Shown in pieces: positions 18,443 through 29,294 of a stretch of DNA of 64,000 nt. The stretch spans positions 1 to 64,000 of the forward strand of contig NZ_LFVU01000002.1 in the NCBI RefSeq assembly GCF_001047375.1, read 5' to 3'. The stretch comes from Clostridium cylindrosporum DSM 605 (lineage in GTDB: Bacteria > Bacillota > Clostridia > Clostridiales > Caloramatoraceae). The position numbers and the translations under genes are program-made. Under the pieces are notes generated by a model. That model worked only from the letters and a program-made list of their open reading frames with translations. It did no database searches and was not told where the DNA came from. Each line of letters begins with the position of its first letter. The first letter of the stretch is position 1.

Positions 18443-21145
18443 CTACCTATTCCAATACTTAGCTATACCATTTGCTATACCATTTGCCGCTTTTTGTTGA
18501 AAAACAGGATCTTTCAGTTTAGCTTCATCGCTTAAAGTATCAATAAATGCTAACTCAACTAATGATGCTGGCATTTTTGTATTATTCAATACATATAAAC
18601 TTCCTGGTTTAGCACCTCTATTGTAAAGTCCTATAGAGGCAACAAGTTCCTGCTGTATAGAGGTTGCAAGAGCCTGATCTTTACTTACATAATTCTTACT
18701 ATAGAATGTCTCTGTTCCTGTACCCCCTCCAGCATTACAATGAATAGATACAAATAAATCTGCTCCATTTGAATTTGCAAAGTTTGTTCTATATGCTAAA
18801 GATTCTGATTGAACTAAGCTATTCCAACTGACTACATCATTTTGTGTTCTTGTATAGAGAACTTCGTATCCAGTTGACTGTAAAATTGATCCTAATTTTA
18901 GTCCAACACTTAAAGCTATATCTCTTTCCCTTGTCCCACTTGCAGATAGTGCTCCTGGATCTTTTCCTCCATGTCCTGGGTCAACAATTATTTTCTTTTT
19001 TAAAGGTGCAGGTCTTATAGCATCTATATTTACTATTTTGTAGTCTTCATATACTTCACCTGAAATCCATGCCCTTTTAGCCCATAGAAGTACTTTATTC
19101 GTACCTGATTCTAGTGGAGTACTAAGGCTAATTGTTGTCTTTTCTCCACTTTTAATAGGATCAGTATACTCCGATGAACTTACCCATTGACCTTTGCTAT
19201 TCGAAAACATAAACGCCTTATAACTTATGTTACTTCCATCACCGGCACTTGCGCTAACTGTTAATTCTGGTATTGTTCCTTCGTTGACTTTAGCAGAATT
19301 AACTGTCGCTTCTGATATCTTAGGAGTTTTATCAGCATTAACAGTTACATTTGAAATATCGTGCACATAGGAATCATATCCACCTGGGTCAATAGGAGAA
19401 TATCCCGCTCTTTTCACCCATATACTAAAGGTATTGCTTCCTGGTTGTAATGGTTTAGTTATTTTTACTGTAGTCGGCGTACTTGGATCTACAGATTCAG
19501 TATATCCATTTGAAACATCTTCCCATATTCCTTTACTTTGTGAGTATAAATATATTCTATATTGTACATTTACATCTGCACTTGACTTTAGAGTTACACC
19601 TGGATATCCTCCTAGCTTTATTCCTGAACTATCTACATTTACGCTAGTTATCTCTGGTATTGTATTACTTTCACTAGTTACATTAATCCTATAGCTTAAG
19701 AAATTATCATAACCTTCTTTGTTAACAGGTGTTTTTCCTGCTCTTTTAACCCAGATACTAAAACTGCTTTCACCTTTTTGCAGTGCTATATTAGACTGAA
19801 GATTATATATACTTGATGGATTTACTGCTTCAGTGTATCCATTTGATATATCTTCCCATATCTTTTTAGTTGATGAATATAAAAATACTCTATATTGCAC
19901 ATTTTCACTTCCAGTTGAAGTTAAGCTTATTATTGGCTTTATTCCAACCTTTTGCTGAGTAGCCGATATAGTTGCAGATTTAACTGTTGGTAGAAGAGCT
20001 TCACCTTCTGTATTATCAGAAGTGCCTGCATTAATTCTATAACTTAAAAAGTTATCATAACCTGCACTGTTTGCAGGAACTTTACCTGCTCTTTTTACCC
20101 ATATGCTAAAGCTATTCTCACCTTCATGTAATGCTATATTAGACTGAAGATTATATGTACTTGACGGACTTACCGCCCCAGTATATCCACCTGATACATC
20201 TTCCCATATCTTTTTAGTTGGTGAATATAAATATACCCTATATTGTACATTTTCACTTCCAGTTGAAGTTAAGCTTATTATTGGCTTTATTCCAACCTTT
20301 TGCTGAGTAGCCGATATAGTTGCAGATTTAACTGTTGGTAGAAGAGCTTCACCTTCTGTATTATCAGAGGTACCTACACTTACTCTATAACTTAAAAAGT
20401 TATCATAACCTGCTTTATTTATAGGGTCCCTATCTGCTCTTTTTACCCACACGCTAAAGCTGTTTTCGCCTTCATGTAAGGGTTTGTTTAGCTTTAAACT
20501 AGTAGTAGATGCAGAATCAACAGGCGCAGTATATCCTCCTGTAACATCTTCCCATATTTTACTAACTGGAGAGTATAAATACACTCTATACTGAACCTTA
20601 GTATCTCCAGTAGATGTCACTCTTAAACTTGGATATATACCAGCCTTTTGCTCTGTAGATAAAATACTAGCTGATTTAATTTCTGGAATAATCTCAGAAG
20701 TTGAAGAAGCATTTACCGTTACCCTATAACTTTGAAAATCATCATATCCCCCACTGTTTATAGGGGTACTCCCTGACTTTTTAACCCAAACACTAAAGCT
20801 ATTTTCTCCACTATGTAAAGGCTTTGTAAGTTTTAAAGTATAGGTTCCATTTCCTGCTACAGAGGTAGTATATCCTCCTGATACATTTTCCCATATCTTT
20901 TTAGTTGGTGAGTACAGATAAACACTATACTGTACTGCAGCACATCCTGTTGAACTAAGCCTTAAAGTAGGATATACTCCAGCAGCTGGAGATTTTTCTA
21001 CCATCTCTACTCCTGTCATTTTAGGACGTGTATCTGTAGTTGCCGCATTAACATTATTAATTGAAGCTAATAATCCTAAAGTATTTAAAACAAGAGTAAA
21101 TAGCAAAATAAATAGTATTCTGTTTTTTGTTTTATCTTTTATAAT
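18443..21145 (-). CDS. secreted N-acetylmuramoyl-L-alanine amidase with six repeat domains
   Basis: Exported cell-wall amidase of about 900 residues. A signal peptide is followed by six tandem repeats of about 105-116 residues (pattern VQYRVYLYSPTKKIWEDVSGGYT...ENSFSIWVKRAG...GYDNFLSYR; the sixth is divergent). They resemble triple-tyrosine/Ig-like modules, a tentative match. The C-terminal Amidase_3 domain (about 190 residues) has zinc ligands in DPGHGG, the Glu in TRERD and the His in SIHCNAG, plus catalytic Glu in VELAF. The first canonical start (TTG 21106) has no ribosome site. A perfect GGAGG sits 8 bases before an in-frame ATT (21145) or 11 before ATA (21142), adding 13 Lys/Arg-rich residues that complete a normal signal peptide; I therefore extend to ATT. 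Confidence 0.9.
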   Translation of the reverse strand: MIKDKTKNRILFILLFTLVLNTLGLLASINNVNAATTDTRPKMTGVEMVEKSPAAGVYPTLRLSSTGCAAVQYSVYLYSPTKKIWENVSGGYTTSVAGNGTYTLKLTKPLHSGENSFSVWVKKSGSTPINSGGYDDFQSYRVTVNASSTSEIIPEIKSASILSTEQKAGIYPSLRVTSTGDTKVQYRVYLYSPVSKIWEDVTGGYTAPVDSASTTSLKLNKPLHEGENSFSVWVKRADRDPINKAGYDNFLSYRVSVGTSDNTEGEALLPTVKSATISATQQKVGIKPIISLTSTGSENVQYRVYLYSPTKKIWEDVSGGYTGAVSPSSTYNLQSNIALHEGENSFSIWVKRAGKVPANSAGYDNFLSYRINAGTSDNTEGEALLPTVKSATISATQQKVGIKPIISLTSTGSENVQYRVFLYSSTKKIWEDISNGYTEAVNPSSIYNLQSNIALQKGESSFSIWVKRAGKTPVNKEGYDNFLSYRINVTSESNTIPEITSVNVDSSGIKLGGYPGVTLKSSADVNVQYRIYLYSQSKGIWEDVSNGYTESVDPSTPTTVKITKPLQPGSNTFSIWVKRAGYSPIDPGGYDSYVHDISNVTVNADKTPKISEATVNSAKVNEGTIPELTVSASAGDGSNISYKAFMFSNSKGQWVSSSEYTDPIKSGEKTTISLSTPLESGTNKVLLWAKRAWISGEVYEDYKIVNIDAIRPAPLKKKIIVDPGHGGKDPGALSASGTRERDIALSVGLKLGSILQSTGYEVLYTRTQNDVVSWNSLVQSESLAYRTNFANSNGADLFVSIHCNAGGGTGTETFYSKNYVSKDQALATSIQQELVASIGLYNRGAKPGSLYVLNNTKMPASLVELAFIDTLSDEAKLKDPVFQQKAANGIANGIAKYWNR
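19899..20020. repeat. 122-bp direct repeat, copy 1, inside amidase gene
   Basis: Identical base for base to 20247-20368; period 348 bases (116 codons). It spans the junction between repeat domains 3 and 4. Confidence 0.9.
20247..20368. repeat. 122-bp direct repeat, copy 2, inside amidase gene
   Basis: Identical to 19899-20020. The other domain repeats are similar in protein but not in DNA, which points to a recent duplication or gene conversion of this pair. Confidence 0.9.
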
Positions 21146-21419: not shown

Positions 21420-21439
21420 TATTACAAAAGATAGATTAT

Positions 21440-21668
21440 AGTCAATGAAAAGGATAAGTACCTTAAGAAATACTTTGTAGCGAGTAAGGGATGGTGTAAG
21501 CCTTATAATGTATTCTTTAGGGAATAGAACCTTTGAGATTCTACCGGAATTTAGTATGGTTTGACCTTTGCCTTAGGTTACAAAGGCTAAAGTGAGTACT
21601 TTTGTACTAACTAGAGTGGTACCGCGGATATTCTCCGTCTCTTGATATAAGAGATGGGGTTTTTTGTG
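21440..21668 (+). promoter_or_regulatory. T-box leader (arginine) of argS
   Basis: tRNA-sensing leader. The T-box core AGAGTGGTACCGCGG is at 21613-21627. Stem I carries the AGTA motif (about 21456), the distal-loop sequence GGATGGTGTAAGCC (about 21489-21502) and the AAAGG/CCTTT base. The terminator CCGTCTCTT/AAGAGATGG with a T run is at 21635-21666. Uncharged tRNA would favour the antiterminator and argS expression. The specifier should be an Arg codon; AGG (21519-21521) and AGA (21526-21528) both fall in the specifier-loop segment and I cannot choose between them. Confidence 0.88.
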
Positions 21669-24100: not shown

Positions 24101-24141
24101 AGGTATCCTTAAAGGCAAAACTTTTACCTTTAAGGATACCT
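24101..24141 (-). terminator. terminator of the McrBC-like operon
   Basis: AGGTATCCTTAAAGG paired with CCTTTAAGGATACCT (15 bp, 11-base loop), overlapping the end of the nuclease gene region. The T-tract (ATTTCTTT) is modest. Confidence 0.7.
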
Positions 24142-25893
24142 CTATATTAGTTTACTTATTAACATATTTTCCAAATCCTTAAATCCATAGATTTCTCCAC
24201 TTTCATCAGGCTTTAATTGTAAAAATGTATAATCTCCCCATTCTTTACTAATAACTCTATCAATATCTTCTTGTCCTGGATATACAACTATAATCTTTTT
24301 AATTGGATAAATAGGTTTTCTATTATTATCAAAGATATATTTAATTGTTGTTTTATAGTTTTTTATTTGAATCATTGTATTAGTATTATAAAGATCACTC
24401 CAAAGATAAGAATATCTTCTATACTTAGATTCAATTATTATAGAATCTTTTAGACTATTATTTTCTAAATAATCCACTCTAATATCAGGCAGTCTATTTG
24501 GAGCATGAGTATAAAATCCATTTCCTGTTTCTAAACTTTCACTAGGCATTGATAGAACTTCCTTTTCATACCACACCCTAACTTCCTTTTCACCATTTAT
24601 AAATCTAGCTAAGCATCCCTTTGGAATCTTATCTAAAAAATTACACTCGCTTATATCCTTAAAGTCACAATTTGAAAGACTCATTCCAATATCTTTAAAT
24701 ACCTTAACAACAACAAGAAATACAAAATACTCATATAGAAGCTCAGATGGCTTATAACTAATAGATTTTTTTTCCTTACTTAAATAAATTTTATTATATA
24801 TTTTTAGTATAGACTTATATCTATTATCTTCCATCCTAACACTTTTATAATTAATATTATGAATAGTAGGTACTTCCTTTATATATGTACTTTTTATAAA
24901 AGATGCAAGGGTTGTTTTTGCACCTTTTAATACTCTCATTATATATTTTAGATCATCTCTTCTTTTTTTTACACTTCCTAGGGATAAACAAGTTTGATCA
25001 TAGGATTTTATTCTTTTCTCTATCTCTTTTGTATCAAAACTTACTCCTTTAACTTTTTCAATATTGCTTTTTTTAAATTCTGATTCTTTTCTTACTGCCA
25101 CTTCTTCTATTTTATTTTGTTCATATGCATAGGTTAACTTCTCTTCGATATCAGAAATACTAATCAACATTTTCGTAGCAATACTTTTTATAATAATATT
25201 TTGCTTATTACGGAAATCCTTAACCTTCTTATAACTATATTCATCATTTTTGTTCCCTTTAGAATTTAAATATTCAACCTTTCTATCTATCCTTTGATGT
25301 TTACCACTTTTTATATAATTCCTATCTAAAGTAAAATAAGGATTTTTCATTATACTGCTCAAATTATATTTTAATAAACTATGAAATTCGTTATACTGTT
25401 TTAATATACTCATATAGTCATTAACTACAGAAGAATTACTCCTATGTAATTTTGAACCCATATTATAAGATAGATTACTGATCTGTGTATTTACAAAATC
25501 CCTTAAGTTCTTAAGCTGAATATCATTTATGTGTCTAGGAACAATTTCAAACATAGAATAATACTTTCCATTATTTAAAGTTAACTTAACAATATAGCTT
25601 CCTGGAATAAGCATAGAATAATTATTGTCAAGTTCAAATAACATTTTACTTTGGCCTGGAAAAAGTATAAATGCTTCTCCATCCTCTTGAAATACATTTT
25701 CTACAAGTAAAGTTGCCCTTTCATCATTTGCCTCAAATTCTATATAAACCTTTGAACATTCCTTTATCACAACTTCAATATCATCTATGCTCCATAAATC
25801 TTTATGAAACTTAGTAACTTCTTGAACATATTCTTTTCCAAAGTTCTGAATTATAAATCGTACTTTAATACTCTTACTATAAAGTGTATCCAT
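24142..25893 (-). CDS. McrC-like protein: DUF2357-type N-terminus and PD-(D/E)XK nuclease
   Basis: Predicted nuclease subunit of a McrBC-type system, 583 residues. The N-terminal 140 residues have a beta-rich Ig-like feel (GSYIVKLTLNNGKYYSMFEI), then a long helical region typical of DUF2357 McrC relatives (about 140-420). The C-terminal domain has the PD-(D/E)XK pattern: LPDIRVDY (about 480), IIIESKYRR (about 498), then MIQIKNYK. The gene starts inside the ATPase gene (17-base overlap, with GAGGAGATG as ribosome site), which implies a coupled complex. No DNA methyltransferase accompanies it, so modification-dependent or RNA/DNA invader-directed cleavage is inferred, not shown. Confidence 0.82.
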   Translation of the reverse strand: MDTLYSKSIKVRFIIQNFGKEYVQEVTKFHKDLWSIDDIEVVIKECSKVYIEFEANDERATLLVENVFQEDGEAFILFPGQSKMLFELDNNYSMLIPGSYIVKLTLNNGKYYSMFEIVPRHINDIQLKNLRDFVNTQISNLSYNMGSKLHRSNSSVVNDYMSILKQYNEFHSLLKYNLSSIMKNPYFTLDRNYIKSGKHQRIDRKVEYLNSKGNKNDEYSYKKVKDFRNKQNIIIKSIATKMLISISDIEEKLTYAYEQNKIEEVAVRKESEFKKSNIEKVKGVSFDTKEIEKRIKSYDQTCLSLGSVKKRRDDLKYIMRVLKGAKTTLASFIKSTYIKEVPTIHNINYKSVRMEDNRYKSILKIYNKIYLSKEKKSISYKPSELLYEYFVFLVVVKVFKDIGMSLSNCDFKDISECNFLDKIPKGCLARFINGEKEVRVWYEKEVLSMPSESLETGNGFYTHAPNRLPDIRVDYLENNSLKDSIIIESKYRRYSYLWSDLYNTNTMIQIKNYKTTIKYIFDNNRKPIYPIKKIIVVYPGQEDIDRVISKEWGDYTFLQLKPDESGEIYGFKDLENMLISKLI

Positions 25894-27814
25894 TATAATA
25901 CATCTCCTCGGCTTTTCGCTTTAATTCATCAATTGATATTTTAAAATCTGATATTCCTTTATAATTTTCCTCTATTAATATTTTATAAATCTCTCCATGA
26001 TTTATATGACCCTTTTCTATATTTCCAATAAGCTTTCCATATTGCTCCTGATGCCCTTTTACTTTTGTTAAAATTCTTTGCTTAATTTGTATATCAAATG
26101 ATTTTTCTCTCGATAAAAGCAACTCTCCCTTTTCAGTTTCTGGTATGTTAAATATATAGGATGCCATATTATACAAAGTTCTATAGGATATACCCTTTTG
26201 CCTATCTATTGCATTAATTGCATTATGTATATCATCTAATAATTTAAGCTCATTTTCCCTAAATATGTCTAAAGGAGATGTACAATCTCTTCTCCAAAAT
26301 TTAAAGTTTAAATAGTATTTTTCATCTAAATTCTCTAAAGTCTTTCCCCTATAGGATTCTAATATATTTTTCATTTCAATAAATGAAATCTTTTTAGGAT
26401 TAATAAGATTTGCCCTATCTAAAAGTCTATCTGAAAACTCCTTAGTTGTTTCATCTATATTAACAGTACCAACAAATACAACATTCTTACCTATTTTGAT
26501 GGATGCTGGATAATCACTGGAATTTTTGCATTTTGAATTTTTGTTATATAGGATTAAATTTCTTTCTTCTTTTTCCATTTCAAGTATTGAAATAAATGGA
26601 CTAAACCAATACTCTACCTGACTTAAGTTCATTTCATCAAATATAATCATAAAAACTTCATCGGTATTTTCCTGTGCAGTTCTTAATAAATCTACAACCC
26701 CTGTTTCTGACGGTATATATTCATCCTTTGATGTATTTAAGTATCCTATTATATCAGATGGCTCTGTATATGAAGGACTAATAGGTACTACTATATAATT
26801 TTTATCTTCAAGTCCAAGAGCCTTTGCATATGAAATTGCAAGACTAGTCTTCCCTATTCCAGACATTCCACTAATAATTGTTAAAGGATTTGTCTTAAGC
26901 GATATATGAAAATTATAAATATCTTCTTCTTTGTAAAAAAGACCTGTATTTGTAAGATTATATTTAAATCTTTTTAAAAATTCATATTCACTTTTTATTA
27001 TTTTATAGTCTAATTTTTCCTCTGAATTTTTTAAGACGTGTTCTCCATTTTTGAAGTATTCTTTCAACTCCCCATCAATGTATTCCTTAGTTAAAAAAAG
27101 TAAGTTGTCATTTACTTTATATACAATATTTTTTCTGAAGTGATCTGGTATCTCAATTTTTTTAATTTCACCTATTCCTTGAAGCATTCTTTTATCATCT
27201 AATGTTCTTCCCCAATTTAAATTATAATAGATATAATCATCACATATTATAAATTCTGGATCATCCATATACTTACTATAGTTTTCAAATCTGATTGGAT
27301 CTTGTCTCATAATTGCTCTTTCAAACTCTTCGAATCCTCTAACAATAGGTGACGGAATAGGAACAAAGGTGTGTCCCCTATAATTGTTTAAGTCCTCTAC
27401 ATCTCTTACAACTAAATTCCTATAATAAATTTCAACTTTTCCTAGCTTCTCTTCCTTTTTAAGATAAGGTGTAAATAATACAAGCTTATTCTTTAATTTT
27501 TCATATATATATTCCTTTTTTTCCTTTATTTCAAGATCCCAATATTCAAGGGGCATTCCAATTCCTTCTATTCCCTTTTCAAATCCTACGAACATGTTAT
27601 TTTCAAAAGGTCCAGGAATATCATATAAGTTTTTCGGTATACTTGACATTGCTTTAATATAAAATAATATATATTGAGGATTCTTCCTTAAATACGTTAT
27701 ACAACTTTGATCCTCACCTATACTGGGAAATACTTTTTCTTCTATCGCAAGATATCCTAATAAATAACATTCCTCAATTGACCTAATATCCTCTTCTTTG
27801 AAAATTCTTTGCAT
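25877..27814 (-). CDS. McrB-like AAA+ NTPase
   Basis: Motor subunit of the McrBC-like operon, 645 residues. The first 300 residues match nothing I recognise and may be the target-recognition part. The AAA+ module (about 310-560) has Walker A GMSGIGKTS, PISPSYTEPSDIIGYL, Walker B MIIFDEMNLSQVEYWF, and VGTVNIDETT (sensor-1 and the McrB family N-x-D signature), then FSDRLLDRAN. McrB is GTP-specific in E. coli; nucleotide preference here is unknown. ATG follows GGAGGGG, two bases after the preceding gene. Confidence 0.87.
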   Translation of the reverse strand: MQRIFKEEDIRSIEECYLLGYLAIEEKVFPSIGEDQSCITYLRKNPQYILFYIKAMSSIPKNLYDIPGPFENNMFVGFEKGIEGIGMPLEYWDLEIKEKKEYIYEKLKNKLVLFTPYLKKEEKLGKVEIYYRNLVVRDVEDLNNYRGHTFVPIPSPIVRGFEEFERAIMRQDPIRFENYSKYMDDPEFIICDDYIYYNLNWGRTLDDKRMLQGIGEIKKIEIPDHFRKNIVYKVNDNLLFLTKEYIDGELKEYFKNGEHVLKNSEEKLDYKIIKSEYEFLKRFKYNLTNTGLFYKEEDIYNFHISLKTNPLTIISGMSGIGKTSLAISYAKALGLEDKNYIVVPISPSYTEPSDIIGYLNTSKDEYIPSETGVVDLLRTAQENTDEVFMIIFDEMNLSQVEYWFSPFISILEMEKEERNLILYNKNSKCKNSSDYPASIKIGKNVVFVGTVNIDETTKEFSDRLLDRANLINPKKISFIEMKNILESYRGKTLENLDEKYYLNFKFWRRDCTSPLDIFRENELKLLDDIHNAINAIDRQKGISYRTLYNMASYIFNIPETEKGELLLSREKSFDIQIKQRILTKVKGHQEQYGKLIGNIEKGHINHGEIYKILIEENYKGISDFKISIDELKRKAEEMYYNGYTL

Positions 27815-27816
27815 TA

Positions 27817-29049
27817 CTACCCCTCCATAGTAAACTTACTGATAATTATATTTTGAGTAAGCTCTTCTATACTTTTAGAAAATATCGTTATCTTTTTCAA
27901 TTTTAACGCTATAAGATAATCTTCTAATATTAATAAATTTTTAGTACTATCTATTGATCCTCTATCAATAAACACAACTCCTTTAAAATTTGAAAAATAG
28001 TTTGAAAAAGTCTCTATAAAATCAGGTGGGATTATTTTATAATTACCAATAGAATCCATTATCCTATCTGGTACATAATTGGTTATAATTATAATATCTG
28101 GATTATATTCATTTAAATTGAAACTTTCATTTTTCATAATTTTATATTCTAAACTCTTAATATTTTCTTCATAGCCTTTTAATATCATTTCAAACCTAGA
28201 TATTTCCTCCTTTAGACTATTAATATTTTTATTTAATAAGGCTATTTCATTATTTTTATTTAAGCACTCTCCCTCTAAACAATCTATTTTTTCTCCATTA
28301 AACATTAATAAATCTTTATTTATACGTTGAAGGATATTAAAAAGTAATTTATTAAAAAATCCTACTTTATTCTGATCTCCTTTTATATAATCTATATTAA
28401 GACTTATAAAAGCAAGCCATAAAAGACTTTCATCAAATGACTCTGAAAGATCCCCAAGCTCTCTACAAATATCTACTATGGACTTATCTTTTATAATACT
28501 TCTTACTCTTGTATATTCACTAATTCTTCCAAGTTTTAAAAGATGTTCTTCTATAGACTCTACATTATTTTCAAGAAAACTAATCTCATCCTCAATGTTT
28601 AGATATTTTTCCACTATAGATAAACAGTTTTCCTCTGTAATATCTCCATCATTTACAAGAAGTCCAGAAAAAATATGTTTACCACTTTCAATGTTTATAC
28701 TTATTTTCTCACATAACCTCTCTGCATCCTCAGGAAACAAATTCATAAATATTGCAAATGTTTCAAACATACCATATTTATTTTTACATGATGATAAGTA
28801 AAGCTCACTTAAAAACTCTTCTAAACTCTTTCCCTTATACTTCTGAGATTTTTCATTAAAAATTTCATAGAGTAATTCTTGAAACTTTTTTTTATTACTA
28901 AAATTCATTTTTATTACATTTCTTATTAAACTTTTAGGAGCCTTTTTAATATTCATAAATCCGTTTATTTTAATATTTTTCCTCTGTGCAACTAATATCA
29001 AAAATTCATAATCCATTAATTCAAAAAAAAGTTCAATGCTTTTCATCAT
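27817..29049 (-). CDS. unrecognised coiled-coil protein, first gene of the McrBC-like operon
   Basis: Not recognised; 410 residues. Residues 1-240 are helical with many Lys/Asn/Ile. A coiled coil follows (about 255-310: LNKNINSLKEEISRFEMILKGYEENIKSLEYKI). The last 100 residues look like an alpha/beta Rossmann-type fold: PDIIIITNYV, GNYKIIPPDF, FKGVVFIDRG, KKITIFSKS give strand-helix alternation. This layout is reminiscent of coiled-coil partners in CoCoNuT-type McrBC systems, but that is inference. It precedes the ATPase by two bases and carries the operon ribosome site GGAGGGG. Confidence 0.78.
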   Translation of the reverse strand: MMKSIELFFELMDYEFLILVAQRKNIKINGFMNIKKAPKSLIRNVIKMNFSNKKKFQELLYEIFNEKSQKYKGKSLEEFLSELYLSSCKNKYGMFETFAIFMNLFPEDAERLCEKISINIESGKHIFSGLLVNDGDITEENCLSIVEKYLNIEDEISFLENNVESIEEHLLKLGRISEYTRVRSIIKDKSIVDICRELGDLSESFDESLLWLAFISLNIDYIKGDQNKVGFFNKLLFNILQRINKDLLMFNGEKIDCLEGECLNKNNEIALLNKNINSLKEEISRFEMILKGYEENIKSLEYKIMKNESFNLNEYNPDIIIITNYVPDRIMDSIGNYKIIPPDFIETFSNYFSNFKGVVFIDRGSIDSTKNLLILEDYLIALKLKKITIFSKSIEELTQNIIISKFTMEG

Positions 29050-29294
29050 TTCCCCTCCATTTATAAACTTATATATTCTATAAGATTGTGTCTATTTCCT
29101 TTTTATATAAACCCTTACATTATCAATGAATATTTATATAAAAATAACTAAATTTTAAAAACTAATACATCTAAATATATAGTAAAATAATGGATAATAA
29201 TTATTGTCTTTTTTTTAAATAAGTGATATATTCTTATTGGTACTTATTGTTTTGTCGAAATTCCCTATTACTTTACGAAAGGAGATGAGGGAAG

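Follow-up and report, generated by a model that had tools for sequence, protein, structure and literature searches.

Three adjacent genes of Clostridium cylindrosporum DSM 605, here referred to as A, B, and C, were examined on the minus strand of a stretch of 64,000 nucleotides (hereafter the window). These genes probably constitute a Type I-B CoCoNuT (cnuA-cnuB-cnuC), a McrBC-related Type IV-like restriction unit, for which we also propose a mechanism. The Type I-B placement rests on the layout, the signature motif, and the host range. The genes and the elements adjoining them are as follows.

27817..29049, minus strand: gene A, CnuA-like, 410 aa
25877..27814, minus strand: gene B, CnuB/McrB-like AAA+ NTPase, 645 aa
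24142..25893, minus strand: gene C, CnuC/McrC-like, DUF2357 + PD-(D/E)XK nuclease, 583 aa
25877..25893, minus strand: overlap of B and C, 17 nt
24101..24141, minus strand: intrinsic-terminator-like hairpin of 19 pairs, directly 3' of C
29050..29294, no strand assigned: divergent intergenic region between A and a RelA/SpoT-like gene, putative promoter region

The first-pass annotation of this DNA had described a three-gene operon, and the three open reading frames on the minus strand, the 410-residue A, the gap of 2 nt between A and B, and the 17-base overlap of B and C were all confirmed. A, B, and C form a single unit with one strong terminator-like hairpin at its end. This hairpin (24141-24101) was the sole terminator-like site observed between 23400 and 29400, for which the mean of the shuffled sequences was 0.8. 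A Shine-Dalgarno-like sequence was present at every start, namely GGAGGGGAA for A, GGAGGGG for B, and GAGGAG for C. The start codon of C (ATGG) lies inside the codons for the conserved C-terminal G-Y region of B, and the ribosome-binding site of C is located in the B codons immediately preceding that region. An overlap of 17 nt was shared by most A-B-C loci that we examined; the exceptions had 11, 23, or 68 nt. Similar overlaps, of 23-32 nt, were also seen in other NxD systems. The intergenic region 29050..29294 is the probable promoter region of the unit; promoter-like matches in it were no commoner than in shuffled sequences. On the A side, the unit is flanked by the divergent RelA/SpoT-domain gene; on the C side, its first neighbour is a DUF4829 lipoprotein-like gene, beyond which lies argS. 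Directly 5' of argS, a T-box leader was detected at 21436-21645 on the plus strand (Rfam RF00230, 126.6 bits). Tandem repeats of 348 bp (2.3-2.5 copies, 84-86% match) were also observed at 19679-20590, where they sit in a gene for a cell-wall-amidase-like secreted protein (18443-21106, minus strand).

Loci other than the window were sampled by searches at the order and phylum levels, with three Caloramator loci in addition. Besides the window, 24 loci carried a B gene of this kind; in 22 of them A adjoined B, and the genes stood in one strand order, A-B-C, or A-B where a contig ended. The trio was also found on three Bacillota plasmids, from Priestia, Paenibacillus, and Lactococcus, and that on the Lactococcus plasmid was flanked by two IS6-family transposase genes. 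As 22 further chromosomal loci and three plasmids repeat the A-B-C order, a chance origin of the arrangement was excluded. None of the phage records searched contained a full homologue. One locus (L070, 7940-10451) carried CnuB and CnuC with no adjacent CnuA and with a thioesterase-like gene upstream. In another (L036, 4631-6042), CnuA was present as two open reading frames (202 and 265 aa) that lie 5 nt apart and not in the same frame; the gene there is either naturally split or frameshifted, or its sequence contains an error.

Gene B showed a Pfam match to AAA_5. When a profile of 25 B homologues was used in a profile search of the PDB, the E. coli McrB chains came first, with 6hz4 as the best match, and hhalign of the B profile against E. 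coli McrB gave 96.5%. The nearest structure to the AlphaFold2 model of B (pLDDT 86.7) was likewise McrB 6hz4 (Z 17.1, rmsd 3.6, 191 residues). The Walker A motif GMSGIGKTS, the Walker B motif with DEMN, and TVNIDETT, on which B had originally been called a McrB-type AAA+ protein, were all present, and their key residues were invariant or nearly invariant in the 25 homologues. The signature motif of B was NxD (N452-I-D454), and NxD was found in all 28 B proteins of this kind, whereas E. coli McrB has NTAD; B thus departs from NxxD, the motif that characterises McrB of classical McrBC. NxD marks one McrBC branch including the CoCoNuTs (Bell et al., PMC11090510). In our tree, all B proteins of this kind formed one clade (UFBoot 100) that excluded other NxD proteins. 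Furthermore, the PADLOC candidate family PDC-M26A matched 25 of the 25 B proteins, that of the window at 5e-38; PDC-M26 was not found by name in the literature searched.

Ahead of the AAA+ module, the model of B contains a predicted, mostly beta N-terminal region. Its length, given as 300 residues in the first-pass annotation, was corrected to about 260-290 residues, and the accompanying remark that no McrB DNA-binding domain was recognisable there by sequence held. In Pfam and PDB searches the region was assigned to no known family, and the CSD, YTH, and EVE families were absent from the Pfam matches listed for B. By hhalign, no support was obtained for a CSD against E. coli CspA or for an EVE domain against a Chlorohelix EVE-McrB protein. 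The strand order of the region in the model was compatible with an OB fold, a CSD having no sequence support. The longest helix in the model was of 25 residues (265-289), and no long coiled coil was observed. The idea that this N-terminus points to a new target was not upheld, since domains of CSD-like and often YTH-like type occupy this part of the published Type I-B CnuB.

The window protein C alone showed no match in Pfam, PADLOC, NCBIfam, or the PDB, and its identity became clear through the family alignment and the homologues. DUF2357 was detected in 17 of 24 C homologues (best 6e-20) and PDDEXK_7 in 14 of 24 (best 3e-11); PDC-M26B of PADLOC matched 4 of the 24, the window protein not among them. 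P469, D470, and K490 were invariant in the 24 homologues and position 488 was always E or D, the catalytic centre in the window reading P469-D470 ... E488-x-K490. The presence of these domains in the homologues, together with the intact catalytic residues, bears out the initial reading of C as a PD-(D/E)XK McrC-like protein. Since the catalytic residues are intact, the nuclease looks active as judged from its sequence; some other types of CoCoNuT have versions that are inactivated. The hhalign score of the C profile against E. coli McrC was low (0.2%), and in this low-scoring comparison a short stretch placed D-A-K of McrC on E-S-K of C. The PDB profile matches of the C alignment, which were mostly helical and designed proteins, were judged to be chance coiled-coil matches.

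In the AlphaFold2 model of A (pLDDT 85.8), a helical N-terminal domain (residues approximately 1-225) is followed by a coiled coil, which is a single predicted helix of approximately 80 residues (226-307), and by a small (beta-alpha)4 domain at the C-terminus (approximately 318-409) that is predicted to be receiver-like. The predicted helix agrees with the coiled coil noted at first. The gene had been regarded as unknown; however, the order of a helical domain, a coiled coil, and a receiver-like domain fits the published CnuA layout. When residues 315-410 were compared with known structures, mainly Rossmann-like folds were retrieved, many of them response-regulator receivers, with Z of 6-7.6, a range that this common fold arrangement can reach. 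Response_reg was absent from the Pfam matches listed for A, Foldseek alone gave no significant match for A, and A matched neither PDC-M26A nor PDC-M26B of PADLOC. The modelled C-terminal domain is consistent with a receiver, which is not proof of one.

Histidine kinases have been suggested in the literature as regulators of Type I-B CoCoNuTs. At the phosphoacceptor position, which by alignment is residue 362 of A, Asp was found in one of 23 A proteins, namely that of the window, and the remaining 22 had His, Gln, Leu, or Thr. As this Asp is not conserved, control by an ordinary phosphorelay appears unlikely, and its loss in 22 of the 23 proteins speaks against the suggested regulation by histidine kinases. 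A role of the receiver-like domain in protein interaction seems more likely than one in a phosphorelay.

We also compared the location of the unit among the relatives. According to the first-pass annotation, occurrence at the same locus in all relatives with no defence signal would have spoken against a defence role. This was not the case: the unit was present in 6 of the 17 family genomes, being shared at the same junction with Caloramator, and absent from the other 11. In the window genome and four Caloramator genomes, it had argS on one side and the RelA/SpoT-like gene on the other and kept one orientation, and in G008 it was located elsewhere, near uvrA-like and uvrB-like genes. In several genomes of four other genera, argS adjoined the RelA/SpoT-like gene without the unit. 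In the tree of ArgS and RelA, the genus of the window grouped with a unit-less genus (support 81) and Caloramator grouped with another unit-less genus (support 100). There are two possible histories: an old insertion with several later losses, or transfer of the unit, flanks included, from one lineage to another. At the argS-relA junction, two further genomes (G005 and G006; loci L086 and L087) contained other DNA of approximately 5 kb, including an ABC-transporter-like gene by sequence inspection; the site therefore tolerates insertions, and the junction may be an insertion hotspot. Five genomes from two genera keep the unit at one and the same chromosomal position, which is uncommon for a defence island that moves freely. 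The identity between the window and Caloramator sequences was 31-34% for A, 34-37% for C, and 56-57% for B, as against 68-69% for ArgS and 80-83% for RelA in the flanks. The identities of A and C below those of ArgS and RelA indicate that A and C evolve faster than their housekeeping neighbours.

Genes related to defence or mobility were found near some of the A-B-C copies: AbiH and AbiEii-like ATPase genes in L039, Cas1, Cas4, and Cas3 genes approximately 2.8 kb from the CnuA-B-C unit in L043 (15213-19444), and serine recombinases in L038 and L071. The patchy presence, the empty sites, the plasmid carriage, and the AbiH, CRISPR, and recombinase neighbours in some relatives fit defence, and the same pattern argues against a housekeeping role. 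The earlier proposal of a defence unit without a methyltransferase is supported. A Type II CoCoNuT has been reported to protect P. aeruginosa PAO1 from at least one phage (PMC12735699). For Type I-B CoCoNuTs, which are immune systems by prediction, no experimentally demonstrated phenotype was found in the literature searched.

Three other explanations were weighed against a Type I-B CoCoNuT. The model of B was matched, too, by the AAA+ modules of RavA and of MoxR-like proteins, as would be expected if A-B-C were a housekeeping chaperone system of the MoxR/RavA type and not a defence unit. This is scarcely credible, because McrB came first both by sequence and by structure, the centre of the partner nuclease C is intact, and the unit is missing from most family genomes; a housekeeping role was rejected on account of the patchy presence. 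A classical modification-dependent McrBC, in which the N-terminus of B would read a modified DNA base, C would cut the DNA, and A would be an accessory, shares with our unit a B/C pair as the conserved core and an intact PD-(D/E)XK centre like that of DNA-cutting McrC. However, every member had NxD and never NxxD, A stood ahead of B in nearly all loci and therefore belongs to the unit, and sequence searches of B yielded no known McrB DNA-binding domain, all of which makes the classical system improbable.

The position of the unit bears on a further explanation, in which this same unit works as a cell-suicide or stress module that senses infection or translation stress and damages host DNA or RNA. 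The location beside argS and the RelA/SpoT-like gene would then be meaningful, and the unit is indeed kept between argS and the ppGpp-synthetase-like gene in five genomes; moreover, Bell et al. (PMC11090510) predicted that CnuA has pyrin/CARD-like domains and that there are links to translation. Against this, in more distant relatives the unit occupies many different locations and is also carried on plasmids, and the junction with other DNA in two genomes looks like a tolerant insertion point. We therefore regard such a module as rather unlikely.

For the Type I-B CoCoNuT, we propose the following mechanism, drawn largely by analogy with McrBC. CnuB would assemble into a nucleotide-driven hexamer, and its mostly beta N-terminus would bind foreign or modified nucleic acid. 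CnuC would dock on the CnuB hexamer, stimulate hydrolysis, and cut via its PD-(D/E)XK domain. Because the PD-(D/E)XK centre of CnuC is intact, DNA is the likelier substrate for cutting. Bell et al. make a case that CoCoNuTs recognise RNA (PMC11090510), which is compatible with the cutting of DNA. CnuA probably serves as a scaffold or gate: its coiled coil would scaffold or gate the complex, and its N-terminal helical domain would recruit partners. A bolder combination, that the degenerate receiver-like domain of CnuA is a phosphorylation-independent sensor or adaptor gating a McrBC-type nuclease and that the unit at the argS-relA junction has settled there as an immune module tied to translation or to the ppGpp state, is highly doubtful as a whole. 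If confirmed, the loss of Asp would shift the focus to CnuA as an adaptor and not as a phosphorelay target. Caloramator species are thermophiles. Since the present copy is compact, with three genes and one terminator, and its host is related to Caloramator, the proteins may suit biochemistry.

Finally, the unit was compared with known systems. Like E. coli K-12 McrBC (Type IV), it has adjacent genes for a McrB-type AAA+ protein and a McrC-type protein with DUF2357 and PD-(D/E)XK; it differs in having NxD instead of NTAD, an unrelated N-terminus, and an extra coiled-coil gene. The McrBC-like reading of the first-pass annotation is therefore sustained by McrB being first for the B profile and structure and by DUF2357 in the C homologues. 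With PDC-M26 of PADLOC, the unit shares the match of the window B to M26A and those of 4 of 24 C homologues to M26B, whereas gene A and the window protein C match no PDC-M26 model. The Pseudo-Type I-B CoCoNuT of Bell et al. 2024 (PMC11090510) has CnuB and CnuC of the same branch, and L070, with B and C but no adjacent A, resembles it; it is without CnuA, whereas the window has CnuA.

The published Type I-B CoCoNuT consists of CnuA with a pyrin/CARD-like domain, a coiled coil, and a receiver, CnuB with a CSD, often a YTH domain, and the NTPase but without a coiled coil, and CnuC with an IG-like domain, DUF2357, and PD-(D/E)XK, and it occurs mostly in Bacillota (PMC11090510). The present unit differs from it in that the receiver-like domain has no conserved phosphoacceptor Asp in the A proteins aligned here, and the CSD and YTH domains of CnuB were not detected at the sequence level in the window B. 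It agrees in the gene order A-B-C, the Bacillota host, the separate coiled-coil protein with a helical N-terminus and a predicted receiver-like C-terminus, the NxD McrB without a fused coiled coil, and the McrC with DUF2357 and PD-(D/E)XK, here recognised through homologues. The comparison with CoCoNuTs already drawn in the first-pass annotation is thus supported, the whole unit fitting the published Type I-B layout (PMC11090510). Taken together, these findings suggest that A-B-C most likely adds one more instance to an already described kind of system and is not a new kind.
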